A stretch of 31,822 bases of DNA from a virus: IMG/VR virus record IMGVR_UViG_3300023082_000028, positions 1-31,822 of that record. One strand, given 5' to 3'. Made by a program: the position numbers and the translations under genes. The notes under the pieces are model-generated. The model was not told the origin of the DNA and did no database searches. It saw only the letters and a program-made list of their open reading frames with translations. Of the stretch, positions 1-28,767 are shown in pieces. The stretch's first letter is position 1. Every line of letters starts with the position of its first letter.

Positions 1-2
1 CC

Positions 3-299
3 CAGATCAGCAGGTGGGCCGACGGCTTGCCGGCGCCCGTGAAGCGGCGCGCGGTCGAGCTGCGCCGGGAGTGGGGTGCGATCTGTCACGAACGCGCACG
101 CTTCTGGACTGCCGGAGCCCTTGGCCCGTCGTGGCACGACAAGTACGAGACGTTCGGCCCGCTGACCTGGCAGGCCGCCCTCGCGGTGGATTGCGACCTG
201 CGAGAGCAGGCCCACCATCAAGCCGAGCGCGCTTTCTGCGACTCGCTCGTCCCCGACGACGAGCCGACCGACCTCCTCGAGCTGTTGGCGGCGATGTGA
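3..299 (+). CDS. Hypothetical protein, 5' end cut by the window edge
   Basis: The reading frame is open from the first bases to a TGA at 297-299, so the true start lies outside the window. A TTG at 27 is an internal codon in the visible part, with no ribosome binding site I trust. About 99 residues are visible, Arg/Glu-rich at first and ending in an acidic stretch (PDDEPTDLLELL). I recognise no family. The stop overlaps the GTG of the next gene, so it appears to belong to the same translationally coupled early operon as the genes that follow. Confidence 0.6.
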   Translation, partial: QISRWADGLPAPVKRRAVELRREWGAICHERARFWTAGALGPSWHDKYETFGPLTWQAALAVDCDLREQAHHQAERAFCDSLVPDDEPTDLLELLAAM

Positions 300-418
300 G
301 CCCGTCCGAGCGGATCAGCGACGCCGAGCTCGCGCGGATCCGCGACCGCCACCCCGCACTCCAGCAGGACCAGCTCGACGTCGAGCACGACGAGCCGACC
401 CAGGAGACCGCCCGATGA
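296..418 (+). CDS. Small hypothetical protein (40 aa)
   Basis: A GTG at 296 overlaps the TGA of the previous gene, and the stop overlaps the ATG at 415 of the next gene (ATGA). The product starts MSPSERISDAELARIRDRHP and is strongly charged, with a predicted single helix. It is short, and support comes mainly from its exact fit between two coupled genes. No function can be given. Confidence 0.5.
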   Translation: MSPSERISDAELARIRDRHPALQQDQLDVEHDEPTQETAR

Positions 419-852
419 CGCGACTCCACCTGGTGCCCACCGTGGCCGACCGACCGTTGCCCGCTCTCTGGGATGGTCGCCGAGTCGTCTGGGACGAGCT
501 GACCGACCAGCTCCCCACGACCCTCGACCTCCACCTCACGAAGGCCCAGCGCGCGGAAGCTGCCTGCACAGGGTGCGGCACGCCGGACTCTGACGCCCTG
601 ATGTCCGTCGGCACCGTCCACCCGCTGCCGGGCGACCTGATGGAGAGCAGCGTCCCGCGGAAGTCCAAGCGCACCGGACGCACGCTCCACGTGCCGACCA
701 TGGTGGCCGCCCACCCGTTGCGACGCCTCCACCTGACCCGCTGCAAGACCTGCGGCCTGGACGTCGTCTGGGACACCCAGACCGACGAGTGGTGGGACCT
801 CGACGCCTCCGACTACGGCCCTGAGGGCTCGACCGATCCGAGGCTGTTCTGA
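415..852 (+). CDS. Zinc-ribbon-like hypothetical phage protein (145 aa)
   Basis: The ATG at 415 lies in an ATGA overlap with the upstream stop, and the gene ends overlapping the ATG at 852. Two cysteine pairs, CTGC near residues 51-54 and CKTC near 110-113, are placed as in a zinc ribbon, so it may bind one zinc ion. Between them is a basic segment (VPRKSKRTGR). Cysteine-pair proteins of this kind are frequent in actinophage early regions, usually without a known role. It precedes an HNH nuclease gene in the same operon. Confidence 0.7.
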   Translation: MTRLHLVPTVADRPLPALWDGRRVVWDELTDQLPTTLDLHLTKAQRAEAACTGCGTPDSDALMSVGTVHPLPGDLMESSVPRKSKRTGRTLHVPTMVAAHPLRRLHLTRCKTCGLDVVWDTQTDEWWDLDASDYGPEGSTDPRLF

Positions 853-1301
853 TGACCGCGGGTGCGTTCGCCCCCGAGGTGCGGGAGGCGATCTACGAGG
901 TTGCCTCAGGCCGGTGCATCGGCTGCGGACGCGTCGACGTCACCGCCCAGCACCGTCGCGCCCGTGGGATGGGCGGCACACGCGACCCGCTCGCGGCTAC
1001 GCCAGCGAACGGGCTACCCCTCTGCGGATCCGGCACGACGGGCTGCCACGGCTGGACCGAACGCCACCCCACCGAGGGAGCTCTCCTCGGGTGGCGCCTC
1101 ACCAGCGGGCAGGACCAGCTCGTCGAGCCGTTCTACACCCGCCACGGGTGGCACCGCTGGACGGTAGTCGAGCGGGCCGACCGGATCGGTCCGGTGCGGA
1201 TCTACCTGGTGGCCTGGGTCGACGAGCCCGAGCTCGACCGCCGCGACGAGCGCAAGACAGCGATGCGCTCGTTCCTCAACCGGTCCCCGGGGTGGCGCTG
1301 A
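852..1301 (+). CDS. HNH endonuclease-like protein (149 aa)
   Basis: The order of metal and catalytic residues fits an HNH nuclease. A first cysteine pair CIGC (22-25) is followed by QHRRARGMGG with the candidate catalytic His at 34, then Asn 53 in ANGLPLCG, Cys 58, and GCHGW with Cys 65 and His 66. Such zinc-bound HNH domains cut or nick DNA with a divalent metal. In many phages a small HNH protein helps terminase during packaging; here no terminase is nearby, so the role is open (homing, packaging or host DNA attack). Start and stop each overlap the neighbouring genes by one base. Confidence 0.8.
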   Translation: MTAGAFAPEVREAIYEVASGRCIGCGRVDVTAQHRRARGMGGTRDPLAATPANGLPLCGSGTTGCHGWTERHPTEGALLGWRLTSGQDQLVEPFYTRHGWHRWTVVERADRIGPVRIYLVAWVDEPELDRRDERKTAMRSFLNRSPGWR

Positions 1302-1474
1302 TGGGTGTCCGCCGTCGCTGCCTGATCCGCGGCTGCCCTGACGGCGGTCTCTGGATGGAGGCCCCGACCCTCGCCGCGGCGGCGGCGATCCAGCACCGCC
1401 ACTACATGGCCGAGCACTTCGCGCCGGCCCCTCAGACCGATCCACGCAGGACCCAACCACAGGAGACACGATGA
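1301..1474 (+). CDS. Small hypothetical protein (57 aa)
   Basis: The ATG at 1301 shares its A with the upstream TGA, and the stop overlaps the ATG at 1471. The product begins MGVRRRCLIRGCPDGG, with a CxxxxC pair and a later HRHYMAEHF segment, so a Cys2His2-type zinc site is possible. No family is recognised. The precise coupling on both sides supports it as a real gene. Confidence 0.55.
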   Translation: MGVRRRCLIRGCPDGGLWMEAPTLAAAAAIQHRHYMAEHFAPAPQTDPRRTQPQETR

Positions 1475-2091
1475 CCGACCACCCGACCGATACCCCCGAC
1501 GCCACCCCAGACTGGGTCGAGCGCGCCATTCCGGCTGTCTCAGAGGTCCCACAGAACCCGACCCGTGTCACGAAGCGGAAGTTCGCGCACGAGCTCTACC
1601 CACACGCCGACGAGGCCGAGGTCCGCGAGCTCGCAATCGAGGTGCCGTACCTCTACGCGCAGGCGCTCGCCTTCGACGTCTGGGGAACCGGATGGTTCGA
1701 CGCCTTCCCCGGCGGTCACGAGAAGGGCACCCCCGAGCACACCACCGCCGCGCAGATGACGACGTCACGGACGCTGCTCCTGATCGAGCACCGCCGGACC
1801 GCGCTCCTCGCCGACGCCCTACTGCAGGGGCTCTCCGGTCAGGAGGCATGGTCGTGGGCTGAGTCCCGGATGGACGAGACCGGCGAGTGGGTCTACGAGC
1901 GTGCCGTGCACTACGGCATCGACCCCTACGCGATCAAGCCGTACCCGTGCGGCCCCGTCCCGGACCACCACGATCACCTCGACCCGCCGGACACTCACGG
2001 GGGCCGGATCGTGCACCGCATCCCCGGCGCTGAGGCCGACTGCGTGGACTGCACAGAGGTACCCGAGAGCACCGATCGGCTGGACGTCTGA
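1471..2091 (+). CDS. Hypothetical phage protein with C-terminal His/Cys patch (206 aa)
   Basis: The ATG at 1471 overlaps the upstream stop in ATGA form. The middle (about residues 35-150) is mostly helical, with several Trp residues (WGTGWFDAF, AWSWAESRMDETGEW). The C-terminal third is rich in His, Pro and Asp (PDHHDHLDPPDTHG), with a CVDC pair near 192-195 that could hold a metal. Proteins with this general look are common in actinophage early regions. I cannot name a function. Confidence 0.65.
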   Translation: MTDHPTDTPDATPDWVERAIPAVSEVPQNPTRVTKRKFAHELYPHADEAEVRELAIEVPYLYAQALAFDVWGTGWFDAFPGGHEKGTPEHTTAAQMTTSRTLLLIEHRRTALLADALLQGLSGQEAWSWAESRMDETGEWVYERAVHYGIDPYAIKPYPCGPVPDHHDHLDPPDTHGGRIVHRIPGAEADCVDCTEVPESTDRLDV

Positions 2092-2261
2092 TGGCCGGCG
2101 AGACGAGGACCCCTGACGGGTGCGCCCGCTGCGGTGTCCCGGACAAGAACCACGGGTGGCGTCGCCACTGTGGTGGCTACTTCAAGACCCCGACCCCCGA
2201 GCAGATTGAGAACCGACGCCGGGTGGTCGCACCCGTCGAGATCGAAGGAGCACGGCCATGA
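2091..2261 (+). CDS. Small putative zinc-binding protein (56 aa)
   Basis: The ATG at 2091 shares its A with the previous TGA, and the stop overlaps the ATG at 2258. The product has CARCGVPDKNHGWRRHC, a CxxC pair followed by His and Cys, as in very small zinc-finger proteins. The rest is basic and ends PVEIEGARP. A GAAGGAG at 2243-2249 near its end serves as ribosome binding site for the next gene. No specific function can be assigned. Confidence 0.6.
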   Translation: MAGETRTPDGCARCGVPDKNHGWRRHCGGYFKTPTPEQIENRRRVVAPVEIEGARP

Positions 2262-2743
2262 CAACACCCTCCCCGCACACCGCCCATGACACCCGCCACC
2301 CACTCCTCGAGCCCTACGAACAGGGCCTGGAGAGCGACCCCCGGATGCCCGTCAACCGGCAGGCGGCGACCGGTCGCCATGGTTCCCCCGCGCACGAGGT
2401 CCCGGCTGCTGCGGTCGAGGCTGCGGCGCGGGATCTGTTCGCCTGGGACGTGGAGGAGCATGATGACCCCGCGCCGACTTGGGAAGACCTCAACGAGGCC
2501 CAGCGTGACGTGTGGCGGTCCGGCGCCCAAGCCGCCCTCACCGCCCCCCTTCCCTTCCTCCGCGAGACGTGGGAGGCGCCGATCCGGGCGCTGGTCGACG
2601 AGTTCGCGTCGTTCGAGAACTACGCCCGGAGCAACGATCGCGGGCAGACCGCGTTCGACAAGGCAGCCCGACGCGAGGCCGACACATGGCACGAGGCGGC
2701 TGGCCGTCTCCGCGCCCTCCTCACCTCGGAGGCGACCTCGTGA
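2258..2743 (+). CDS. Hypothetical protein (161 aa)
   Basis: The ATG at 2258 is preceded by GAAGGAG and overlaps the stop of the previous gene. The N-terminus is polar and rich in His and Pro. From about residue 50 on it is acidic and helical (AAAVEAAARDLFAWDVEEHDD, then a long amphipathic segment ending in LRALLTSEATS). The C-terminal motif EATS recurs at the end of the next product, which suggests the two genes share ancestry at their junctions. No domain is recognised. Confidence 0.65.
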   Translation: MTTPSPHTAHDTRHPLLEPYEQGLESDPRMPVNRQAATGRHGSPAHEVPAAAVEAAARDLFAWDVEEHDDPAPTWEDLNEAQRDVWRSGAQAALTAPLPFLRETWEAPIRALVDEFASFENYARSNDRGQTAFDKAARREADTWHEAAGRLRALLTSEATS

Positions 2744-3006
2744 GCGCGCTGGGACGAGAGCCCATCACGATCTGGGCACCCGACAACATCCACCAATCTT
2801 CCGGCGACCGACTCGCCGAACTGATCCGTGCGGGTGGGATCGCGTACCTCCGTGCGAACCCGACGAAGACGCTCCACGAGGGCGACTGGCGGGACAAGCC
2901 GTTCATGGATGGCATCGCTGTCGACCTAGACGAGTCGGACGTCGTGGACTTCATCGCCGCGTTCATCATCGACCACGCGGACCCTGACACTGAGGCGACC
3001 TCGTGA
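2740..3006 (+). CDS. Hypothetical protein (88 aa)
   Basis: The GTG at 2740 overlaps the previous TGA as GTGA, and the stop overlaps the GTG at 3003 in the same way, both within the repeated string GGCGACCTCGTGAGCGC. The product is acidic at its C-terminus (DLDESDVVDFIAAFIIDHADPD). It has no cysteines and no obvious membrane segment. Family unknown. The repeated junction indicates local duplication or module shuffling in this operon. Confidence 0.6.
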   Translation: MSALGREPITIWAPDNIHQSSGDRLAELIRAGGIAYLRANPTKTLHEGDWRDKPFMDGIAVDLDESDVVDFIAAFIIDHADPDTEATS

Positions 3007-4104
3007 GCGCCGACGACACCCGCGACCTGACCACGCAACCGCTTGAGCACTTCCCGCTCACCGAGATCATCGGGGACCCAGGCAGCGTGGTCCCTCGTCG
3101 CCATGACGAGTCGATTCCGTCGTGGTCGGCGCGCGCAGTCCTCGCGTCACCGTGGCTGGCCGCTCATGTCGCTGCTGCGGTGGCTGAGCGGGACGCCGAG
3201 ATCGAGCGGCTGCGATTCGAATCCGAGCAGGCGCGTCTGGCTGCGATCCACGCTGAGGAGTACGCGCGTCACACCGACACTCTGGTCGGGATCATTCGGG
3301 ACTCGCAGGAGAGGTTGGCGCGGCCGGGACAACGCCTCGCAGACGTGAAGGAGATCCTTCACCGGCTTCCGCATGCTGCTCGTCAGGAACGGGAAGACCG
3401 CCAGCTACGGGACCGGGACAACACGCCGCTTGCGACACGCATCGCAGAACGCGCTGACCTTGAGGCTGAGATTCTGCGGTTGAGGACCCTCATTGAAGAG
3501 GAGATCGAGACGCCGGCTGAGGCCGAGCGCGACGAGGCCCGTGCTGCGCTGGGTGCAGTCGCGGCGCTGGCGGACGAGGCCGAGCGACGTAACGCCTTCG
3601 GTCACGCGAGGGTCTACGTGTCTGACCTCCGCGAACGCCTCGCTCCCGTGTCCGGTGCGGTCGCCAAGCCGGACGACGCTGCAACAGATCGGCCGGTTTC
3701 GTTGCAGCGCGAGGGTGACGCTGAAACGAATGTCGTGTGCGCGCGCTGCGGAGGCCAAGTAGGACTACGCGAGCCTGGCGTTGGGTGCCTGGAAAACGTC
3801 ATGCACAGCGGCTTGGTCGGCGTCCTCCCGGCCGCCAAGCCGGACGACGAGCGCGAACGCTGGCACGCGGTGGCGGCCGAGATCGTCGAGCATTTCCGGT
3901 CGATCGGATCGAACATCACCGAGACACACGTCGGCATCGTCATGGAAGCGTCGTCGCGAACTGAACACCACCCCGGTCGCCACGCACGAGCAGGAGGTCG
4001 CGGCGAAGGCGTGTGGGCGGTGCGGTGGCTCGGGGCTGCTGCAGGGCCGCGTAGTCGGCCAGCCCGTCTCGTGCACCGTCTGCGGAGGTGGCGGTCGTGG
4101 CTGA
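3003..4104 (+). CDS. Coiled-coil protein with zinc-finger C-terminus, apparent +1 frameshift
   Basis: From the GTG at 3003 the frame encodes a long coiled-coil region (about residues 57-215, many Glu/Arg/Ala heptads), then CARCGGQVG, then a segment ending near THVGIVMEASS (about 3953). Beyond about 3975 that frame, which runs on to 4331, turns into Arg/Pro/Ser-rich text typical of a wrong frame. The +1 frame instead encodes CGRCGGSGLL and CTVCGGGGRG, a DnaJ-type zinc-finger pair ending at 4104, where the stop overlaps the next gene's GTG. The simplest reading is one protein split by one extra base between about 3945 and 3975. Two separate genes are possible, but the +1 frame has no usual start codon nearby. 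Confidence 0.55.
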
Positions 4105-4417
4105 CCAGCGACCTACCGGGACCGGCGTCAGCTCGTGTCGTGACGACGACGGCAACCTCCACGCCCTCTACCGCGACGAGGCACTGGCCGCCGGCTGGAC
4201 CCCACCCGACGTGCTGGCCGCACGGATTGCCGAGGAGCGAGCGATGGCGACCCGCAAGGCGTCCGCCCTCATCGGTGCCCAGACCACCGCGAAGGGACAC
4301 CGCCGGGCCAATGCCGAGCTGTTCTCGATGATCCTCTGGCACGAGGCCGACGAGATCGAGTACCGGCATGAGCAGGCGATGCGTCGTGCACGTGCGGTCG
4401 AGGCGTCCAGTGGCTAG
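4097..4417 (+). CDS. Hypothetical helical protein (106 aa)
   Basis: I chose the GTG at 4097 over the one at 4088 because GGAGGTGG (4084-4091) sits at a good distance, and the overlap with the stop at 4102-4104 matches the coupling used in this operon. The product has a short polar N-terminus (SCRDDDGNLHALYRDEALAAG), then long charged helices rich in Ala, Glu and Arg. No cysteine cluster or membrane segment is present beyond one early Cys. Function unknown. Confidence 0.6.
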   Translation: MADQRPTGTGVSSCRDDDGNLHALYRDEALAAGWTPPDVLAARIAEERAMATRKASALIGAQTTAKGHRRANAELFSMILWHEADEIEYRHEQAMRRARAVEASSG

Positions 4418-4652
4418 GCCGCTCGGACCCTGCGGATGGGCGCACACCTCCACGATGGCCGTCGCGGTCGGACGGTTCGACCTGCTCCTGCCCGGGACAG
4501 GTGGCTACCGCGCAGCATCAGGCGGACCGACGAGGACGACACGAACTCAGGCCGAGGCGGACGAGTGCGTTGCCCTCCACCCGTCCGCCTCGGCAACACA
4601 GGAGGGGGCAACACGACCACCTATCCCGGGACCTGTCGGAGACGATCGCTAG
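4410..4652 (+). CDS. Hypothetical protein (80 aa), weakly supported
   Basis: A GTG at 4410 overlaps the TAG at 4415-4417 of the previous gene by eight bases, as at the preceding junction. The product begins MARPLGPCGWAHTSTMAVAV and ends PPIPGPVGDDR, low in complexity and without a known domain. Other frames are open here too, so this choice rests on the junction pattern. It would be the last gene before a short region with inverted repeats. Confidence 0.4.
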   Translation: MARPLGPCGWAHTSTMAVAVGRFDLLLPGTGGYRAASGGPTRTTRTQAEADECVALHPSASATQEGATRPPIPGPVGDDR

Positions 4653-4691
4653 GTTCAGAACCAAGCACTACGCGTGACGGCGGTAGTGCTT
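4652..4691 (+). promoter_or_regulatory. Paired inverted repeats between two early genes
   Basis: GGTTC-A-GAACC (4652-4662) is a perfect palindrome around a central A. It is followed at once by AAGCACTAC (4663-4671) and its exact reverse complement GTAGTGCTT (4683-4691), separated by 11 bases. No T-run follows, so a simple terminator is unlikely. An operator, an attenuator or an mRNA-processing hairpin fits this first real gap in the early operon. The next gene starts at 4714 behind AGAAGGA. Confidence 0.4.
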
Positions 4692-4713
4692 CGACTCAGG
4701 AAAGAAGGACCGC

Positions 4714-5031
4714 ATGACATTCACGTTCGACGACCCCCCAGAGGCCGTCCAGACCATCGAGCAGCAGCTCGCGCAGACCCGCTCCGACCTGCTCCACGAG
4801 GAGAAGCTCGCGTCGTACTGGAAGGTCCAGCACGAGCAGGCCACCCAGCTCGTCGGCATCCTCCTGGCGCAGCTCGAGAACGAGTACCCAGACGGCGTGA
4901 CCATCGACCTCGAGCAGCTCGGCAAGGCGCCGCAGGTTGAGGTGCTGCGGGTCGAGGAGACCGAGGACTGGTCGACCGAGCGGGTGCTCCGCGTGAAGCA
5001 CGCCTCCCGCAGGAAGGCCGACGACTCATGA
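4714..5031 (+). CDS. Coiled-coil hypothetical protein (105 aa)
   Basis: The ATG at 4714 follows the purine-rich ribosome site AGAAGGA. Residues about 8-60 form a likely coiled coil (TIEQQLAQTRSDLLHEEKLA and onward). The C-terminal part is charged, with a basic end (HASRRKADDS). The stop overlaps the ATG at 5028. It directly precedes a J-domain protein and may work with it, which is inference from position only. Confidence 0.65.
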   Translation: MTFTFDDPPEAVQTIEQQLAQTRSDLLHEEKLASYWKVQHEQATQLVGILLAQLENEYPDGVTIDLEQLGKAPQVEVLRVEETEDWSTERVLRVKHASRRKADDS

Positions 5032-5696
5032 CCGGGCTCTACGAGCTACGGCCTCTCGACGACCGGACCGGCTTCACCGGCAAGCAGAAGCACTCCGCGT
5101 TCACCCGTCGGGCCGGCGATGGTTCGTGGCGACGTGAGTCCATCCCGCTCTCCGAGACGCGTGACCTGCTCGCCCGGGAGCTCACGATGGTCAGCGCCTC
5201 GGACGTGATCCTGGAGGTCGACGTCCTCCCCGGTCAGATCCGGCTCGACGGCGAGCTGTACGCCAACGCAAAGGTCAACTCGCCTGCCGTGCGGCTGCAC
5301 TTCGAGTCGAAGCACGGGCACCTGTCCTACCAGACCGACGTCTTCACGACCTGGCAGGACAACGTCCGGGCGATCGCGCTCGCGCTTGAGGCGCTCCGCA
5401 AGGTCGACCGCTACGGCATTGGCCGCGGTGACGAGCAGTACCGCGGCTACCTCGCGCTCGACGCTGGGACGGGCATCGCGCTCGGTGGCATGACGAAGAC
5501 CGAGGCGGCCGCGGTCCTGCACTCCGCCGCTGACGTGATCGGTGACGAACCGCACCCCGGCATGACGTCTACCTGGGAGATCGAGCGTGTCTGGAAGCGC
5601 GCTCGTAGCGCGTCGCACCCCGACCGCAACGACGGCGACCAGGAGCAGTGGGACCGCGTCGAGCTGGCCGCCAAGGTGCTGGGGCTGACCTCATGA
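5028..5696 (+). CDS. J-domain (DnaJ-like) phage protein (222 aa)
   Basis: The C-terminal region (about residues 185-222) contains WKRARSASHPDRNDGD followed by LAAKVLGL. This is the HPD tripeptide and following helix of a J-domain, which stimulates the ATPase of Hsp70 (DnaK) chaperones. The first 150 residues are a beta-rich region I do not recognise. Phage J-domain proteins of this layout may recruit host DnaK for replication or assembly. The ATG overlaps the previous stop in ATGA form, and the stop overlaps the ATG at 5693. Confidence 0.75.
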   Translation: MTGLYELRPLDDRTGFTGKQKHSAFTRRAGDGSWRRESIPLSETRDLLARELTMVSASDVILEVDVLPGQIRLDGELYANAKVNSPAVRLHFESKHGHLSYQTDVFTTWQDNVRAIALALEALRKVDRYGIGRGDEQYRGYLALDAGTGIALGGMTKTEAAAVLHSAADVIGDEPHPGMTSTWEIERVWKRARSASHPDRNDGDQEQWDRVELAAKVLGLTS

Positions 5697-5812
5697 TGCA
5701 GACCCACGAGCACCGGCCCACCCTCCTCGCCGACCCATCGTTCAACGGCATCGCCTGCCTCGTGCGGGTCTGCGTCGACTGCGGCGTCCTGATGGAGAGG
5801 GCCACACGATGA
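5693..5812 (+). CDS. Small hypothetical protein with CxxC (39 aa)
   Basis: The ATG at 5693 overlaps the TGA of the J-domain gene; a second ATG follows directly at 5696. The product ends in ACLVRVCVDCGVLMERATR, so it carries a CxxC pair and perhaps a small metal site. The stop overlaps the ATG at 5809. Reality rests on the gap-free coupling on both sides. Confidence 0.5.
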   Translation: MMQTHEHRPTLLADPSFNGIACLVRVCVDCGVLMERATR

Positions 5813-5982
5813 GCGTCGCCGCCCTGATGTGGGTCTCCCTCACCGCCTGGATTGCTGTCGTCACCGGCGTCTCCGTCGTCGTGCTCGTGATGAAGGACCG
5901 CAGTCGCGACGTCGCTGGGATGGTGGTCGGTGCGGTGATGCTTGTCGTCATCATCGCCGTCGTGCTGGGAGGCGACCGATGA
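5809..5982 (+). CDS. Small two-span membrane protein (57 aa)
   Basis: Two hydrophobic stretches are visible: about residues 4-27 (ALMWVSLTAWIAVVTGVSVV) and 36-54 (VAGMVVGAVMLVVIIAVVLG). They are joined by a charged turn KDRSRD, giving a hairpin in the membrane. The ATG overlaps the upstream stop and the end overlaps the ATG at 5979. It could act on the host membrane early in infection. It lies far from the lysis genes, so I do not call it a holin. Confidence 0.6.
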   Translation: MSVAALMWVSLTAWIAVVTGVSVVVLVMKDRSRDVAGMVVGAVMLVVIIAVVLGGDR

Positions 5983-6452
5983 AGGCGCTCACCGTCCGCC
6001 AGCCCTGGGCATGGGCCATCACCACCGGCGAGAAGACCATCGAGAACCGCACCACCAACTGGAGGCACCGCGGGCCCCTGCTCATCCACGCCGGCGCCGC
6101 CTACTCCCAGCGCGGCATCGACTCCGACCTGATCCACGACCTCTGGCAGCGCCAGTTCGGATGGGACTACGAGAACACGCTCACACTGACCCTCGGCGCG
6201 ATCATCGGGCAGGTCGACCTCGTCGGCGTGCACCGTGCCGAGCCGGGCTGCTGCGAGTCCCCGTGGGCTGAGCGGGTCTACACCGAGGCATCGGGCAAGA
6301 TCCGTCGGTCGATCCAGCACCTCGAGCTGGAGAACGCCCGGTCCTACGGCTTCGACCCGATCGAGTGCCTCGGCCGGCTCGGTCTTTGGGACGTCGACGA
6401 CGACGTGCTCGAGGAAGTCGCCCGACGCGAGGCCGTGATCAACCGTGGCTAA
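5979..6452 (+). CDS. ASCH-domain protein (157 aa)
   Basis: The N-terminus MKALTVRQPWAWAITTGEKT followed by IENR is the signature of the ASCH (PUA-like beta-barrel) family: a QPWA turn, then GEKTIENR. LLIHAG and a GAIIGQVDLVGVH strand follow in the usual order. ASCH domains bind RNA or modified nucleic acid, and in some members act as N4-acetylcytidine amidohydrolases. Phage copies are common but mostly uncharacterised. The ATG overlaps the preceding stop. Confidence 0.8.
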   Translation: MKALTVRQPWAWAITTGEKTIENRTTNWRHRGPLLIHAGAAYSQRGIDSDLIHDLWQRQFGWDYENTLTLTLGAIIGQVDLVGVHRAEPGCCESPWAERVYTEASGKIRRSIQHLELENARSYGFDPIECLGRLGLWDVDDDVLEEVARREAVINRG

Positions 6453-6666
6453 CCTCCTGGCCCTCGCGGGGATCACAGTCGAGATTCGCCCCCTCGAGCA
6501 CACCTACGTCATCCGCCACCTCGACCTGCACGAGCCCATCGTGCTGTCGCGCCAAGACCTGACCGAGACAGGCCGCTCGCCGGACCACATCATCTACGAC
6601 CTCGTCGCGGCCACGCTGCGCCATCAGCAGGAGGACGAGTCACACATCGTCAGGGGTGAGAACTGA
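6445..6666 (+). CDS. Hypothetical protein (73 aa)
   Basis: The GTG at 6445 overlaps the end of the ASCH gene by eight bases, and the stop at 6664-6666 overlaps the ATG at 6666. The product is a small mixed alpha/beta protein (ANLLALAGITVEIRPLEHTY at the start, an acidic C-terminus). No motif is recognised. The start is set by the coupling pattern. Confidence 0.6.
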   Translation: MANLLALAGITVEIRPLEHTYVIRHLDLHEPIVLSRQDLTETGRSPDHIIYDLVAATLRHQQEDESHIVRGEN

Positions 6667-7061
6667 TGACCGCCACCATGCCGACCACGGTCAAGGTCGG
6701 GACCCTCACCTACACGATCCTGACCGACGCCGACGAGATCCGCCGCATGTCCGAAGCGGCCGACATCGAGAAGGACGCCGAGTGGGCCGCGTTCTCCGAC
6801 CATGACGCCCTCGTCATCGGCATCAACCCGGGCCACCACCCAGACCAGAACCGGGTATCCATCGTCCACGAGCTCCTCCACTGCGTCCTGCGGGTCTCGG
6901 GCTCGTGGCCAGACGCCTACGCACGGACGGTCTCGCGTGCACGGGGCAATCACGGCGGCTTCTCGGTCGAGGAGTCGGTCGTCTCGGCCACTGCGGCACC
7001 CGTACTCGGTGTGCTGCGGGAGAACCCGGACCTGATGGCCTGGCTGCTGGAGGTCGGATGA
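6666..7061 (+). CDS. HExxH zinc metallopeptidase-like protein (131 aa)
   Basis: Residues 68-72 read HELLH, the zincin motif with two zinc ligands and the catalytic Glu, inside a hydrophobic helix (VSIVHELLHCVLRV). An EE pair near 102-103 in FSVEESVVSA is well placed for the third ligand. The short domain resembles the ImmA/IrrE-like and SprT-like peptidases seen on mobile elements, some of which cleave phage repressors. No helix-turn-helix is fused here and no repressor gene is in the window, so the substrate is unknown. The ATG shares one base with the upstream stop. Confidence 0.7.
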   Translation: MTATMPTTVKVGTLTYTILTDADEIRRMSEAADIEKDAEWAAFSDHDALVIGINPGHHPDQNRVSIVHELLHCVLRVSGSWPDAYARTVSRARGNHGGFSVEESVVSATAAPVLGVLRENPDLMAWLLEVG

Positions 7062-7261
7062 TGCTGACCGACACCCCCTCGGCCTGCCCGGCCTCGGACA
7101 CCGGGGACTGCTGCGAACGGACCTGCCACGATCGCGCCGTTTGGGCGGTCACCGACCCTGACGGGCTCGTCCACGGCGTGTGTGTCCGGCACCTCCCGTT
7201 CCCGGGTCTCGTCGAGGTCACCCCGTGGGCCGCGACCACCACCCTCGAGGCGGCAAGATGA
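7058..7261 (+). CDS. Small cysteine-rich hypothetical protein (67 aa)
   Basis: The ATG at 7058 overlaps the previous stop, and the gene ends overlapping the ATG at 7258. The cysteines form CPASDTGDCCERTC followed later by HGVCVRH, which suggests one or two zinc sites. Similar small Cys-rich proteins are common in actinophage early operons and have no assigned role. Confidence 0.6.
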   Translation: MMLTDTPSACPASDTGDCCERTCHDRAVWAVTDPDGLVHGVCVRHLPFPGLVEVTPWAATTTLEAAR

Positions 7262-7518
7262 GCCACCTCATCGTGTTCCGGGCCACCGGACGCTGCCACC
7301 GGTGCAACGCGCCCCTGACCGGGCTGATCACACACCACGGGGCGATCCACCGCAACGCCATCAGGATCCTCGACGACGACCCGATCATCGTCTGGGGGCC
7401 GTGCCCGGGCGGGTGCATGGACTTCCAGTGCTACCCGGCGTCGGACGTCGTTCTGACGGGATTGTCGGAAGCCTCACAGGTCCTCATGGAGGCCGAGCGG
7501 GCGAAGGTGCCTGCATGA
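7258..7518 (+). CDS. Putative zinc-binding hypothetical protein (86 aa)
   Basis: Paired cysteines CHRC (near residues 13-16) and CPGGC (near 49-53) with interspersed histidines (THHGAIH) suggest a compact zinc ribbon. The ATG at 7258 and the stop at 7518 both overlap neighbours in the ATGA manner. No family name can be given. Confidence 0.6.
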   Translation: MSHLIVFRATGRCHRCNAPLTGLITHHGAIHRNAIRILDDDPIIVWGPCPGGCMDFQCYPASDVVLTGLSEASQVLMEAERAKVPA

Positions 7519-7679
7519 TCTGGCACGGTCTGACGTTCCTGTCCTGGGCCGCCTGCGAAGCAGTTCACCGCGACGACCCTTCCCGCTTCACCCGCGTCGC
7601 CGTCTGGTGGCTGCGGATCTCTGGCGGTGTCGTGCTCCTGCGCGGCACCCTGATCCTCCTGATCGGAGCAACCTCATGA
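7515..7679 (+). CDS. Small membrane protein (54 aa)
   Basis: The start MIWHGLTFLSWAACEAV is mildly hydrophobic. The C-terminal half (VAVWWLRISGGVVLLRGTLI and onward) is a likely membrane span. The ATG overlaps the stop of the previous gene, and the stop overlaps the ATG of the WhiB gene. No function is assigned. Confidence 0.5.
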   Translation: MIWHGLTFLSWAACEAVHRDDPSRFTRVAVWWLRISGGVVLLRGTLILLIGATS

Positions 7680-7954
7680 CCGCATCGCCCTACGAGGAGC
7701 TCCGCCGAGCCCTCCAACCCCAAGAGTGGACCGAGCAAGCCGCCTGCGTCGACTCCGGCGAGCACCCGGACCTCTGGTTCGCGCCCCGCCGCAACCACGC
7801 CCAACGTCGACGCGCGAAGGCCATCTGTGCAGCCTGCCCGGTCGCTGACATCTGCCGTGCTGACGGTGAGGGGCACCTCGGGATCTGGGGTGGGCAGGTC
7901 GGGAAGGCGTTCACCCGGTCGCGGCAGGTCCCCCAGGTCAGGGTCGCATCATGA
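7676..7954 (+). CDS. WhiB-family transcriptional regulator (92 aa)
   Basis: Four cysteines at 24, 51, 54 and 60 form the C...CxxC...C set that holds a [4Fe-4S] cluster in WhiB-like proteins. They are followed by the diagnostic turn GIWGG at 69-73 and a basic C-terminus (TRSRQ). The segment WTEQAAC, then DLWF, also matches the family. WhiB proteins occur only in Actinomycetota and their phages. They bind region 4 of the primary sigma factor and alter promoter choice around -35. Placed late in the early operon and upstream of late genes that share an unusual -35 element, this one is a candidate late-gene regulator (inference). The ATG overlaps the upstream stop. Confidence 0.85.
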   Translation: MTASPYEELRRALQPQEWTEQAACVDSGEHPDLWFAPRRNHAQRRRAKAICAACPVADICRADGEGHLGIWGGQVGKAFTRSRQVPQVRVAS

Positions 7955-8334
7955 GCGAGCCGAAGCGGATCCAGCGCAGGCGCACGAAGGGGTGGCGGAT
8001 GCCCGACGGCGCCGTGTACGTCGGCCGGCCCACGAAGTGGGGCAACCCCTGGACCGTCGTGCCTGTCCGAGACGCGAACTTCCCGTTCTCCGACGCGGCG
8101 GACGTCGTGACCGACGACGGCACGACCATAGGCAGGTTCGAGCGGTACTCCCGCGGTCCCCGCTCTGGCGCACCGTACTGGGCGGTCCAGGGGTTCAACC
8201 GCGACTTCGCAGCCGGCCTTGCTGAGGAAGCCCGTGCCGAGCTGGCCGGCCGGGACCTTGCCTGCTGGTGCCCGCTCGACCAGCCCTGCCACGCCGACGT
8301 GCTCCTCGAGCTCGCGAACGGGACACCCGCGTGA
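7951..8334 (+). CDS. DUF4326-family protein (127 aa)
   Basis: The N-terminus has RRRTKGWRMPDGAVYVGRPT followed by KWGNPW, and the C-terminus has LAGRDLACWCPLDQPCHADV followed by LLELAN. These two blocks are the hallmarks of DUF4326, a family common in phages and actinobacteria with no proven biochemical role. The conserved CWC...CH residues may hold a metal. The ATG overlaps the WhiB stop, so both come from the same transcript. Confidence 0.85.
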   Translation: MSEPKRIQRRRTKGWRMPDGAVYVGRPTKWGNPWTVVPVRDANFPFSDAADVVTDDGTTIGRFERYSRGPRSGAPYWAVQGFNRDFAAGLAEEARAELAGRDLACWCPLDQPCHADVLLELANGTPA

Positions 8335-8738
8335 CCACGGAGACGGCGCGGGTCGAGACCATCCGCATCCGCATCCGCATGGCCGACCGCATCAGCGAGA
8401 ACGACCGCCTCCACTGGCGTGTCAAGGCCCGCCGCACCAAGACGATCCGCCTAATCGGCCACCTCACCGCCCGCGGACGGGCACCCATGCAGCGCGCCGA
8501 GCTCGTCGCCCGAATCGGCTGGCCCGACCGCCGCGACCGCGACGCCCACAACCTCATGCCCACCCTCAAGGCCGCGATCGACGGGATCGTGAAGGACGCC
8601 GGCCTGCTCCCGGACGACAACGACCGCTACCTGACCGGCCCCGACCTGCGCCCGTACCTGCTGGGCGAGCGTGGATGGTTGACGATCGACCTGATCTTCA
8701 CCGAGGTGTCGGCCGACGACGGTAGCGTGACCCCATGA
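8331..8738 (+). CDS. RusA-like Holliday junction resolvase (135 aa)
   Basis: The central block RRDRDAHNLMPTLKAAIDGI followed by VKDAGLLPDDND matches the RusA core. Its acidic residues (Asp 69/71, Asp 84, Asp 95/96) and a Lys near 80 are spaced as in the family's magnesium-binding catalytic site. RusA enzymes cut four-way junctions and help resolve recombination or packaging intermediates. The GTG at 8331 overlaps the upstream stop. The length is close to the usual size of the family. Confidence 0.8.
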   Translation: MTTETARVETIRIRIRMADRISENDRLHWRVKARRTKTIRLIGHLTARGRAPMQRAELVARIGWPDRRDRDAHNLMPTLKAAIDGIVKDAGLLPDDNDRYLTGPDLRPYLLGERGWLTIDLIFTEVSADDGSVTP

Positions 8739-8947
8739 CGGTCTCAGCTGTGCTCCACGGTGGCCCGCTGCACGGCGATCGCCTCGAGATCTCGGACGAC
8801 GTCGCCGCTGACTGGTCCCGATCGCAGGTCATCCGCCTCGCCGCCGACCCTGACAACCCGCTCGGCGACCGCAAGGTGTGCACCTACCAGCGGACGGTCG
8901 TCGACGAGGATCCGCTGCGCTACGAGTACGTCGAGGAGCGGCCATGA
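8735..8947 (+). CDS. Hypothetical protein (70 aa)
   Basis: The ATG at 8735 overlaps the resolvase stop, and the end overlaps the ATG at 8944. The product begins MTVSAVLHGGPLHGDRLEIS and ends YEYVEERP. The 'GGPLHG' opening is common among short actinophage proteins of unknown role. No enzyme motif is seen. Confidence 0.65.
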   Translation: MTVSAVLHGGPLHGDRLEISDDVAADWSRSQVIRLAADPDNPLGDRKVCTYQRTVVDEDPLRYEYVEERP

Positions 8948-9124
8948 CGGTCCAGCAGCACGCGCTCGCGGCCTCCCGCGCAATGGAGCGTCTGCTGCGA
9001 GCAGGCACTCACCGACCCGGCCGGTCGCGGCATCCTGGTGCGCCGTTCGCTCTGGGACGGGGAGACGGCCGCGCTGTCCGCCGACGTGCCCTACGGGACG
9101 ATCGTGATCCGCCCGCAGGGCTGA
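8944..9124 (+). CDS. Hypothetical protein (about 60 aa), apparent +1 frameshift
   Basis: From the ATG at 8944 the frame reads MTVQQHALAASRAMERLL, a sensible start. It then becomes Arg/Pro/His-rich text and, left alone, would run through the start of the next gene to 9609. In the +1 frame from about 8995 the text is sensible again (EQALTDPAGRGILVRRSLWD, then an end at IVIRPQG and TGA at 9122-9124), but that frame has no start codon after its own upstream stop at 8945. One extra base between about 8983 and 9006 explains both. It is either a damaged gene, a sequence error or a recoding site. Confidence 0.5.
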
Positions 9125-11597: not shown

Positions 11598-11630
11598 ATC
11601 CCACCACAGGTGTGCGACCTGACCCACTCT
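11598..11630 (+). promoter_or_regulatory. Late promoter P2 (leaderless, for protease/scaffold)
   Basis: ATCCCACC (11598-11605), 19 bases, CACTCT (11625-11630). The predicted +1 is 11637, the A of the ATG. The upstream GTG at 11610 in the same frame would lie between the two elements, so this site favours the ATG as the start. Confidence 0.6.
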
Positions 11631-11636
11631 CGGGGC

Positions 11637-12872
11637 ATGCCCACAGGACAGCTCCTCGGAGTCGAGCTCGTGAAGGTCGGATCGTGGCGTGCCGCGGTCG
11701 GCTCCGGCGAGGTCACCCGAGAGGACCTCGCTGACGCCGTCGAGGCGTACTCCGACCACATCATCGACCGCCCAATCCTCAAGGTCGGGCACCAGGACGA
11801 CAACGTCTTCAACGCCGCAGTCAACGACGGCGCCGGTGATGGCGAACCCGCCTACGGGTGGCTCGAGAACGTCCGTCTGAACGACGCCGGCGACACGCTG
11901 ATCGCTGACATCGTCGGCATGCCCACCAAGCTGGCCGAGATCGCCGCGACCGCGTACCGGCGTCGCTCCGTCGAGCTGGCCCGAGGGGTGAAGACCGCCG
12001 CCGGGAAGTCGTACCGCATGGTCGTCACCGGCCTCGCCCTCCTCGGCGTTGCCCGCCCGGCAGTGAAGGGTCTCGCCGACGTCATGGCGCTGTACTCCGA
12101 GCCCGCCGAGACCACATCGGTTGAGGTACTCGAGCTGATGGACGGCCTGACCGCTGACCAGGTCGGCGCGTTCGCAGCCGTTCTCGACTCTCTGGCACCG
12201 GTGCACGACACGGACCTCGTCCCACCACGATCCGACGATGCCGCCAATTCTGGCGGTGACGTTACGCAGGGCCAGCAGCCCGCCGACAAGGAGAACAAGA
12301 TGCCCGGACTGACCAAGGAGCAGGTGCTCGCAGCCCTCGACGCCGAGGGTGACAAGTCGATCGAGGATCGGCTGGCCGAGCTCACCACCGTCGAGGAGAC
12401 GGACGAGGAGAAGGCCGCGCGCGAGAAGGCCGAGGCTGACCAGGCTGCTGCCGAACAGGCGGCCAAGGACAAGGCCGACGCGGACGCCGCTGCTGCTGCA
12501 GCTGCCTCCGGTGGCGACGACGAGGGCGAGAAGCCCGGCACCGTCACCCTGTCGGCCGCGCAGTTCGCCGCCCTCAGCGACGGCGCCACCAAGGGGACCG
12601 AGGTCGCGAAGATCCTCGACGGCCAGCGCCGCGACAAGCTCGCCAACGACGCGTTCCGTGCCGGCAAGATCACCAAGACCGAGCTGACCGAGTGGCGCAA
12701 GGCCCTCGACCGCGACGAGGCCGGCACCACGACCCTCCTGTCCACGCTGACGCCGCGCTTCTCCACGCAGGAGATCGGCGACGACGCCGCCCCGACCGAG
12801 CTCGCCGAGGGCGAGGCCCAGGCCGTCAACTCCTGGCTCGACACCGTCTTCGGCACCGCGCCGACGGCCTGA
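11637..12872 (+). CDS. Mu I-like prohead protease fused to scaffold (411 aa)
   Basis: The first 150 residues match Mu-type prohead proteases: a candidate catalytic His in LKVGHQDDN (near 52), PAYGWLENVRL, then TAYRRRSVELARG with the candidate nucleophile Ser near 110. The enzyme would cut scaffold and itself during capsid maturation. Residues about 222-411 are an Ala/Glu/Lys-rich scaffold with a coiled-coil core (EEKAAREKAEADQAAAEQAA) and a C-terminal domain that would contact the capsid protein. The gene precedes the decoration and major capsid genes as in Mu-like and lambda-like head modules. I chose the ATG at 11637 because promoter P2 places +1 there. A separate scaffold can arise from the internal start at 12300. 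Confidence 0.8.
   Translation: MPTGQLLGVELVKVGSWRAAVGSGEVTREDLADAVEAYSDHIIDRPILKVGHQDDNVFNAAVNDGAGDGEPAYGWLENVRLNDAGDTLIADIVGMPTKLAEIAATAYRRRSVELARGVKTAAGKSYRMVVTGLALLGVARPAVKGLADVMALYSEPAETTSVEVLELMDGLTADQVGAFAAVLDSLAPVHDTDLVPPRSDDAANSGGDVTQGQQPADKENKMPGLTKEQVLAALDAEGDKSIEDRLAELTTVEETDEEKAAREKAEADQAAAEQAAKDKADADAAAAAAASGGDDEGEKPGTVTLSAAQFAALSDGATKGTEVAKILDGQRRDKLANDAFRAGKITKTELTEWRKALDRDEAGTTTLLSTLTPRFSTQEIGDDAAPTELAEGEAQAVNSWLDTVFGTAPTA
12219..12251 (+). promoter_or_regulatory. Late promoter P3 inside the protease gene
   Basis: GTCCCACC (12219-12226), 19 bases, AATTCT (12246-12251). The predicted +1 is 12258, which gives a 42-base leader ending in AAGGAG six bases before the in-frame ATG at 12300. 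The element lies in the linker between protease and scaffold, a low-complexity and AT-richer spot. Confidence 0.55.
12300..12872 (+). CDS. Nested scaffold protein, in-frame internal start (190 aa)
   Basis: AAGGAG (12288-12293) lies six bases before an ATG in the protease frame, a much better start signal than that of the full-length gene. Translation from here gives the scaffold alone (MPGLTKEQVLAALDAEGDKS at its start), without the protease. Nested protease/scaffold pairs are established for lambda C/Nu3 and Mu I/Z. Here the nested frame would have its own promoter (P3) as well as its own ribosome site, giving scaffold in excess over protease. Inferred from sequence alone. Confidence 0.65.
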   Translation: MPGLTKEQVLAALDAEGDKSIEDRLAELTTVEETDEEKAAREKAEADQAAAEQAAKDKADADAAAAAAASGGDDEGEKPGTVTLSAAQFAALSDGATKGTEVAKILDGQRRDKLANDAFRAGKITKTELTEWRKALDRDEAGTTTLLSTLTPRFSTQEIGDDAAPTELAEGEAQAVNSWLDTVFGTAPTA

Positions 12873-12897
12873 CCCGCATCCCACCAAGGAGCCTCAC

Positions 12898-15896: not shown

Positions 15897-16456
15897 TCGG
15901 GCCCGAGGGCGCGACCAAAGCCGTGGCCGAGCGTGTCGCCGACCTGATGCCCGACAAGCTGGTCGAGCTCCGCGAACGCCTCGCTGACGACAAGCTGCCC
16001 GAGGTCAACTCGATCACTGCGTTCGACGACCACCGCATCCCGATGAACAAGTGGCCGGCGATCATGGTCGTGCCTCAGGACACCCCGAAGATGACGATGG
16101 CAGGCACCAACGGTGTCGAGGAGAAGTGGACCCCCCGTTACGTCATGCGCGCGTTCGTGTGGGTGCGAGGCAGCGACCAGCTCAACGTCGCCCTCAACCG
16201 GTACCGGATCACCCTCGCGCTGCGTGAGGTGCTCCTCGCGTCTCGCGTGTTCGACCAGTTCGAGCTCGACGTGACCACGTTCCGCGAATCGTTCTCCGAC
16301 GTGATGGACGTCAAGAACGAGGGCACCATCGCCGGCGCCTGGATCCAGTTCGACATGACCTCCGAGGAGACCCTCACCACGGGCACCGCGTTGGGCACCG
16401 TCGCGACTGCAGACGTGAACACGGACGTCATCCCACAACACCCCGCGCTTTCTTAG
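15893..16456 (+). CDS. Neck or tail-completion protein (187 aa)
   Basis: The ATG at 15893 overlaps the previous stop (ATGA). The product is an alpha/beta protein (MIGPEGATKAVAERVADLMP at the start; YVMRAFVWVRGSDQLNVALN in the middle) in the position of tail-terminator or neck proteins, between the morphogenesis protein and the sheath. Its last codons overlap the 8-mer of late promoter P4. Function is inferred from gene order. Confidence 0.6.
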   Translation: MIGPEGATKAVAERVADLMPDKLVELRERLADDKLPEVNSITAFDDHRIPMNKWPAIMVVPQDTPKMTMAGTNGVEEKWTPRYVMRAFVWVRGSDQLNVALNRYRITLALREVLLASRVFDQFELDVTTFRESFSDVMDVKNEGTIAGAWIQFDMTSEETLTTGTALGTVATADVNTDVIPQHPALS

Positions 16457-16462
16457 GACGGT
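16430..16462 (+). promoter_or_regulatory. Late promoter P4 (leaderless, for the sheath/tube unit)
   Basis: ATCCCACA (16430-16437), 19 bases, GACGGT (16457-16462). The predicted +1 is 16469, which is the second of two in-frame ATG codons (16463 and 16469). The 8-mer lies inside the end of the preceding gene. Confidence 0.5.
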
Positions 16463-16468
16463 ATGCCC

Positions 16469-18888: not shown

Positions 18889-18921
18889 GTCCCACCACGC
18901 GGGGCCGGGCGCCGCGAATCT
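18889..18921 (+). promoter_or_regulatory. Late promoter P5 (for chaperone/tape measure unit)
   Basis: GTCCCACC (18889-18896), 19 bases, GAATCT (18916-18921). The predicted +1 is 18928, which leaves a 33-base leader carrying TAGGAGA before the ATG at 18961. It follows the hairpin at 18800-18866, so the terminator/promoter pair separates two tail operons. Confidence 0.6.
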
Positions 18922-18960
18922 GAGCGGGACAGAACACCCCGTGGCGACCTAGGAGACCCC

Positions 18961-19539
18961 ATGACCACGACCCCCGACCACGACTTCACCCGACCGGCCG
19001 CAACTTCCACCGGCCCGCAGCTCAACGAGCGTGCGGCGTCGGACTTCGAGAAGCTCCGCAACATCCCGGATCCGGACCTCGCGCCCGTCCCCGAGAAGTC
19101 CGACCTCGAGCTCATCGCCGCCGACCTCAAGGCCAACATCGAGGACACCTCGATCGTCCTGCCGGTCAAGCGTCGGGAGGGCTACTCGCTACGGTTCGAC
19201 ACCAACATTCCGTGGGAGCACTTCGAGAAGTGGCGCAAGGTGTCGAAGGACCGCAGGGCGACCAACGGCATGGACGTGCCGCGCCTGGCGTCCCTGGTCA
19301 TCGCGAACAAGTGCATCGAGATCCTCAAGGACGGCAAGGTCCTCGTCGACGACGCCGGCGACCCGCTGACCTTCGGCTCCGACGAGATCCGCAGCCTCTA
19401 CGGGACGCCGAAGGCCGCCGAGGCGGTCAAGCTCATGATCGGCCGCGACTCCGACATGACGGCCATCTCGGACGCCGTCGTCACCGCTGCCGGTTGGGGT
19501 GACGAGGTCTCCGAGGAGGATCCTACGCCGGCCGACTGA
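18961..19539 (+). CDS. Tail assembly chaperone gpG (192 aa)
   Basis: The gene sits between tube and tape measure genes, where G-type chaperones are always found. The product has a disordered N-terminus, a central alpha/beta domain (RREGYSLRFDTNIPWEHFEK, followed by WRKVSKDR) and a helical end (AVKLMIGRDSDMTAISDAVV), and it stops at 19537-19539. It is thought to coat the tape measure protein before tube polymerisation. A second open segment in the -1 frame runs to 19712 and encodes the T part, so two products are expected. The ATG follows AGGAGA. Confidence 0.8.
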   Translation: MTTTPDHDFTRPAATSTGPQLNERAASDFEKLRNIPDPDLAPVPEKSDLELIAADLKANIEDTSIVLPVKRREGYSLRFDTNIPWEHFEKWRKVSKDRRATNGMDVPRLASLVIANKCIEILKDGKVLVDDAGDPLTFGSDEIRSLYGTPKAAEAVKLMIGRDSDMTAISDAVVTAAGWGDEVSEEDPTPAD

Positions 19540-24570: not shown

Positions 24571-24603
24571 GTCCCACCGACTCCGAGAATGCTCGGTCAT
24601 GCT
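24571..24603 (+). promoter_or_regulatory. Late promoter P6 (leaderless, for the baseplate wedge unit)
   Basis: GTCCCACC (24571-24578), 19 bases, CATGCT (24598-24603). The predicted +1 is the G of a GTG at 24610. This supports that GTG over the in-frame ATG at 24589, which lies within the spacer. Confidence 0.6.
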
Positions 24604-24609
24604 GGGCGC

Positions 24610-26727: not shown

Positions 26728-26760
26728 GTCCCACCCTGCCCGACGTCACCGGGTGATCGT
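26728..26760 (+). promoter_or_regulatory. Late promoter P7 (leaderless, for the tail-collar fibre)
   Basis: GTCCCACC (26728-26735), 19 bases, GATCGT (26755-26760). The predicted +1 is 26767, the A of the ATG. No ribosome binding site is present before that ATG (TCGTTCTCTT). Confidence 0.65.
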
Positions 26761-26766
26761 TCTCTT

Positions 26767-28728: not shown

Positions 28729-28761
28729 GTCCCACCCGGACGCACGCTGGCGTCGCATCTT
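28729..28761 (+). promoter_or_regulatory. Late promoter P8 (leaderless, for the endolysin unit)
   Basis: GTCCCACC (28729-28736), 19 bases, CATCTT (28756-28761). The predicted +1 is 28768, the A of the endolysin ATG. Confidence 0.65.
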
Positions 28762-28767
28762 GGCGTC

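Follow-up and report, generated by a model that had tools for sequence, protein, structure and literature searches.

A predicted internal promoter and nested scaffold gene within a viral protease-scaffold fusion gene

Overview of the predicted arrangement

The viral DNA analysed here (IMG/VR record IMGVR_UViG_3300023082_000028, positions 1 to 31,822; hereafter the window, 31,822 nucleotides) contains a gene for a head maturation protease fused to a scaffold protein, inside which a predicted promoter (P3) and a ribosome-binding site precede an in-frame start codon suited to translation of the scaffold alone. Judged by motif, spacing, frame, conservation, codon bias and domain boundary, it is very probable that this one gene has two promoters, two transcripts and two translation starts, with scaffold and capsid proteins made in excess over protease. 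A preliminary description had placed P3 in the protease/scaffold frame with a predicted transcription start (+1) at 12258, 42 nucleotides before an in-frame ATG at 12300 that is preceded at ideal spacing by AAGGAG and opens a product beginning MPGLTKEQ. All of these features were found where it had put them, and the promoter and the nested start are each independently supported by conservation in relatives. Two findings go beyond that description: the promoter motif is conserved in relatives, and a second promoter 5′ of the gene (P1) would place the RNA start precisely on the protease ATG.

From P1, transcription would begin at the protease ATG and give a leaderless message for the full-length fusion protein. 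P3, a promoter of the same phage-specific class in the linker-coding part of the gene, would start a second RNA shortly before the internal ATG, where a strong ribosome-binding site would direct translation of the scaffold alone. Because the stretch from P3 to the end of the major capsid gene showed neither a terminator-like site on the + strand nor a further full copy of the motif, the P3 transcript would continue across the decoration gene and the major capsid gene, in agreement with the preliminary description. Scaffold, decoration and major capsid proteins would then be made in excess over protease, and the few full-length copies, which share the scaffold part, could co-assemble into the procapsid. 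It is from the sequence features that we infer the use of P3 by RNA polymerase, the separate production of scaffold and the resulting stoichiometry. The coordinates of the features are collected in Table 1.

Table 1. Predicted features of the window, with the basis of each assignment.
Feature	Coordinates	Strand	Basis
P1 promoter; TCCCAC 11599-11604, N21, ANNNT ending 11630	11599..11636	+	motif scan, homologue alignment
Protease-scaffold fusion gene, 411 amino acids	11637..12872	+	phrog_3894 match, E-value 5.9e-72
ACAC upstream element of P3 (−50 to −47), within GACACG	12208..12211	+	47-site position tally
P3 internal promoter, predicted +1 at 12258	12220..12258	+	motif, conservation, codon bias
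Predicted leader of nested transcript, 42 nucleotides	12258..12299	+	P3 geometry; 30-54 nucleotides in relatives
Shine-Dalgarno AAGGAG, 6 nucleotides 5′ of nested ATG	12288..12293	+	sequence, conservation
Predicted nested scaffold gene, 190 amino acids, MPGLTKEQ..., in frame, same stop codon	12300..12872	+	sequence, domain boundary
Decoration (cement) protein gene, 3′ of P3	12898..13272	+	PF09956, above cut-off
Major capsid protein gene, 3′ of P3	13314..14219	+	family match
Promoter motif copy, +1 = ATG 16469 (leaderless)	16431..16468	+	motif scan
Promoter motif copy with 33-nucleotide leader (+1 at 18928), AGGAG before ATG 18961	18890..18928	+	motif scan
Promoter motif copy, +1 = GTG 24610	24572..24609	+	motif scan
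Promoter motif copy, +1 = ATG 26767	26729..26766	+	motif scan
Promoter motif copy, +1 = ATG 28768	28730..28767	+	motif scan

The promoter class and P3

The motif was discovered by lining up the DNA 5′ of the protease ATG in relatives, in which TCCCAC stands at −38 and ANNNT at −11 to −7 relative to that ATG. The window contains seven copies of TCCCAC-N21-ANNNT, all on the + strand and from 11599 on, where 0.55 would be expected; a count of seven was never attained in 100 shuffles, and only the spacing of 21 is enriched, no other from 12 to 33 being comparable. At five copies the position 38 nucleotides past the start of TCCCAC is exactly a start codon (11637, 16469, 24610, 26767 and 28768), a coincidence that suggests the signature of leaderless mRNA. 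P1 is one of these five: its predicted +1 is the A of the protease ATG, which has no Shine-Dalgarno sequence either here or in Arthrobacter relatives, and its geometry, which is repeated 5′ of about 20 homologues, points to a leaderless message for the full-length fusion.

Copies on the + strand also number 7 in phage Brent, 12 in Vibaki, 4 in Bumble and 7 in BarretLemon, where 0.1-0.3 would be expected. The consensus of 47 non-redundant sites, in which TCCCAC, A at −11 and T at −7 were set by the search pattern itself, comprises ACAC (−50 to −47), C at −40, TCCCACA (−38 to −32), [CG]ANNNT (−12 to −7), C at −1 and A at +1. The +1 coincides with an ATG at 28 of the 47 sites, implying a phage promoter family in which transcription would usually start at the A of the ATG and leaderless mRNAs would be widespread. 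As defined in this analysis, members of the family (TCCCACA-N20-ANNNT) have TCCCAC, a spacing of exactly 21 nucleotides and ANNNT. P3 has all three, with TCCCAC at 12220-12225 (−38 to −33) and AATTCT at 12246-12251 (−12 to −7) supplying A at −11 and T at −7.

Of 97 homologous genes, 24 carry the exact motif where protease and scaffold meet, and their protease-coding parts have no copy of it. Within a clade of 22 genes there are 20 exact junction sites, compared with 0.21 ± 0.44 after codon shuffling, and the internal promoter of relatives lies 30-54 nucleotides 5′ of an internal start with a Shine-Dalgarno sequence. In ArV1 and PrincessTrina, the internal promoter is kept and the 5′ promoter is absent. 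The predicted RNA starts of the 5′ and internal promoters are 5617 and 6160 in Brent, 5958 and 6504 in BarretLemon, and 7645 and 8215 in Vibaki. The prediction that P3 is a conserved member of a phage promoter class is strongly supported by these comparisons.

P3 was rejected as a sigma-70 promoter, having no match to the consensus (TTGACA/TATAAT) and belonging to a different, phage-specific class; sigma-70 hexamers are not enriched 5′ of internal starts. An inverted repeat across its −10 region (CCGCC-AATTCT-GGCGG) was likewise set aside as not beyond chance; folding of the P3 region was no better than that of shuffled sequences, and there was no match in Rfam.

Two further observations concern the motif. 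Brent gp69 (45731-46039), an AlpA-like protein, is the only tested helix-turn-helix protein of Brent with a relative in Vibaki, Bumble and BarretLemon; proteins of this type are candidate readers of the promoter, as yet a weak lead. The element TCCCACCA at 12879-12886, just 5′ of the decoration gene and overlapping its Shine-Dalgarno sequence, lacks the −10 half and is either a chance occurrence or a relic.

The nested scaffold start

The nested ATG encodes Met222 of the fusion protein. In a structure model of that protein, residues 187-224 form a disordered linker (predicted local distance difference test, pLDDT, below 50), and the scaffold helices begin directly past Met222, at the linker's end. 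The gene contains an internal start in frame, a ribosome site at the domain boundary and a stop codon shared by both predicted products, an arrangement expected of a nested protease/scaffold pair. In 20 of 21 relatives compared, the protease/scaffold junction has the strongest internal in-frame Shine-Dalgarno sequence with a start codon; in Jinkies, the one that differs, the junction has a weaker AAGGGG.

A wider survey drew on phage records and IMG/VR and covered 50 non-redundant fused genes. A junction start with a Shine-Dalgarno match of at least 5 bases was found in 42 genes (26.7 ± 2.6 in shuffles; 2 in the protease half) and one with a match of at least 6 bases in 28 (12.3 ± 2.6 in shuffles; 1 in the protease half). 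Starts of the stricter kind occur at a density of 3.64 per 1000 codons; for other long genes in these loci the figure is 0.22, and almost no such starts are out of frame. The GGAG of the junction is found in each of the three codon phases and within differing peptides, which argues that the DNA rather than the peptide is kept. Conservation of the ribosome site at the junction of such diverged homologues is highly non-random.

In phages of Gordonia, Corynebacterium, Rhodococcus and Mycobacterium (L015 and L017-L022), an extra in-frame Shine-Dalgarno sequence with an ATG is present at codons of about 165-184, right past the protease domain and 5′ of an additional middle domain, which suggests that these genes may give rise to three nested products.

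Weighing of the alternatives

Several observations weigh against an internal promoter and nested start in the window. Taken by itself, the AAGGAG with its ATG is unsurprising in this gene (codon-shuffle p = 0.95), because its Lys-Glu codons are AAG GAG and a Shine-Dalgarno sequence is therefore expected from the encoded amino acids. The internal site has one mismatch in Altadena (TCCCCC) and one in contig L025 (TCCCGC); homologues from Gordonia, Corynebacterium and Rhodococcus phages have the internal start without such a promoter; and the 24 promoter-bearing genes form only 6 groups at 50% identity. Sigma-70 scans and a position-weight scan detected nothing at P3, which standard sigma-70 scans would miss because its promoter class differs.

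Unlikely, though the strongest of the alternatives, is a scheme in which the scaffold is produced only by internal translation on one long mRNA, as for lambda Nu3, and TCCCAC/ANNNT is the binding site of a regulator rather than a transcription start. The internal start is far commoner in the surveys above than the internal promoter, so translation alone would suffice in most of the superfamily. Against this scheme, the element has the geometry of a promoter and frequently places +1 exactly on an ATG; within the gene it is located 5′ of the internal start, and the protease part never contains it.

Much less probable is that the conserved DNA is a by-product of a conserved peptide. The linker contains a DTxxVP peptide, located between protease and scaffold, of which DT and VP are invariant in alignment A1; it could be a site of protease self-cleavage that releases the scaffold. 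However, the codons are fixed beyond what the peptide requires: at the P3 site proline is encoded by CCA in 19 of 21 homologues (90%, versus 4% elsewhere), the threonine of DT by ACG in 21 of 21 (100%, versus 31% elsewhere) and valine by GTC in 21 of 21 (versus 55% elsewhere). L024 retains TCCCACA though its peptide reads I-P there, and the −10 half of the internal promoter corresponds to no shared peptide. Conversely, the promoter motif would explain the otherwise odd invariance of DTxxVP in a disordered linker.

Least probable of all, coincidence of P3 and a ribosome site in a GC-rich linker rich in Lys-Glu, for which the codon-shuffle result above speaks, is refuted at the level of conservation, both parts being conserved in diverged relatives.

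A possible link between promoter geometry and protein dose

The leadered copy of the motif at 18890..18928 offers a parallel to P3. The ATG at 18961 occupies the position of the tail assembly chaperone gene of relatives, and a leadered copy with a Shine-Dalgarno sequence is conserved 5′ of that gene in Brent (12538), Vibaki (14326), Bumble (12288) and BarretLemon (12880), which suggests that a leader with a Shine-Dalgarno sequence may mark high-dose proteins in general. The promoter class might accordingly set dose by the place of +1, low-dose proteins, the protease for example, being made from leaderless messages and high-dose assembly proteins, namely the nested scaffold and the tail assembly chaperone, from messages that have a leader and a Shine-Dalgarno sequence, with a transcription unit like that of herpesvirus UL26.5 inside the phage gene; the chances of this broader proposal being right or wrong appear evenly balanced.

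Comparison with known systems

Tailed phages and herpesviruses share a capsid protein, a terminase and an assemblin-type protease, and the herpesvirus protease has a Ser-His-His triad. In the fusion protein, His52 and Ser111 are invariant among homologues and probably form the catalytic pair. The top VIA-align match of the protease model is the varicella-zoster virus protease (Z 8.4, root-mean-square deviation 2.7, 103 aligned), followed by pseudorabies virus pUL26N (Z 8.0) and T4 gp21 (Z 7.4), with MCE domains scoring Z of about 5.5. Foldseek found no significant match for the model in PDB, and a profile search of PDB sequences found none. There is moderate confidence that the protease has the assemblin fold of serine proteases.

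The herpesvirus gene UL26.5 lies in frame within UL26 (PMC4498786), and its promoter is located inside UL26 according to the statement in PMC4498786 that cites Liu and Roizman 1991. A similar arrangement of UL80.5 in UL80 of human cytomegalovirus is thought to set stoichiometry (PMC9732275). Like UL26/UL26.5 of herpes simplex virus 1, the viral gene described here has an N-terminal protease, of predicted assemblin fold, fused to a scaffold, and a predicted nested, in-frame, 3′-coterminal scaffold gene with a predicted promoter of its own inside the protease gene. Unlike UL26/UL26.5, it is predicted to use a bacterial promoter class and a Shine-Dalgarno start, its polycistronic transcript would continue into the decoration and capsid genes, and its full-length message is apparently leaderless. 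The likeness of P3 to the herpesvirus promoter is one of arrangement only, bacterial-type and eukaryotic promoters being different.

Mu I/Z is another protease with an in-frame nested scaffold, and the predicted gene resembles it and lambda C/Nu3 in having the scaffold begin at an internal start. A dedicated internal promoter is not known in either of these systems, whose two products are in each case taken to come from one mRNA; in the phage studied here, by contrast, transcription also appears to restart. The preliminary description had regarded nested scaffolds as normally made from the same mRNA and a restart of transcription as a departure, for which UL26.5 is a precedent. Lambda C and Nu3 are presented as overlapping genes in the statement of PMC8508860 that cites Shaw and Murialdo 1980.

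Close parallels are also found in the Arthrobacter myophages Brent, BarretLemon, Vibaki, Bumble and ArV1, which have a homologous gene in the same gene order with the internal promoter, Shine-Dalgarno sequence and start; their records annotate a single gene, and neither the nested gene nor the promoter. A literature search of incomplete coverage found no report of this promoter or of nested scaffolds in actinophages. The new element is the predicted conserved internal promoter in phages, the nested start having its precedent in lambda C/Nu3. Herpesviruses set the dose of protease to scaffold by a promoter inside the protease gene and the known phage cases by internal translation; a conserved internal phage promoter, if real, would be the herpesvirus solution on the bacterial side, and a large group of cultured phages would gain an unannotated gene and a promoter class.

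The fusion gene and its surroundings

The fusion gene product matches head maturation protease families in PHROG, and has homologues in phages of Arthrobacter, Gordonia, Corynebacterium, Rhodococcus, Mycobacterium and Pasteurella. Relatives were not recovered when viral contigs and genome contigs were scanned with a single protein, but an alignment-based query found them. Positions 1-9000 of the window show frequent jumps of coding frame; HNH and RusA families were found there, the reading frames scanned included no recognisable terminase or portal, and the stretch is possibly decayed or chimeric. Public phage records name the fusion gene scaffolding protein in some cases and head maturation protease in others, and several of them give the label scaffolding protein to the cement gene.
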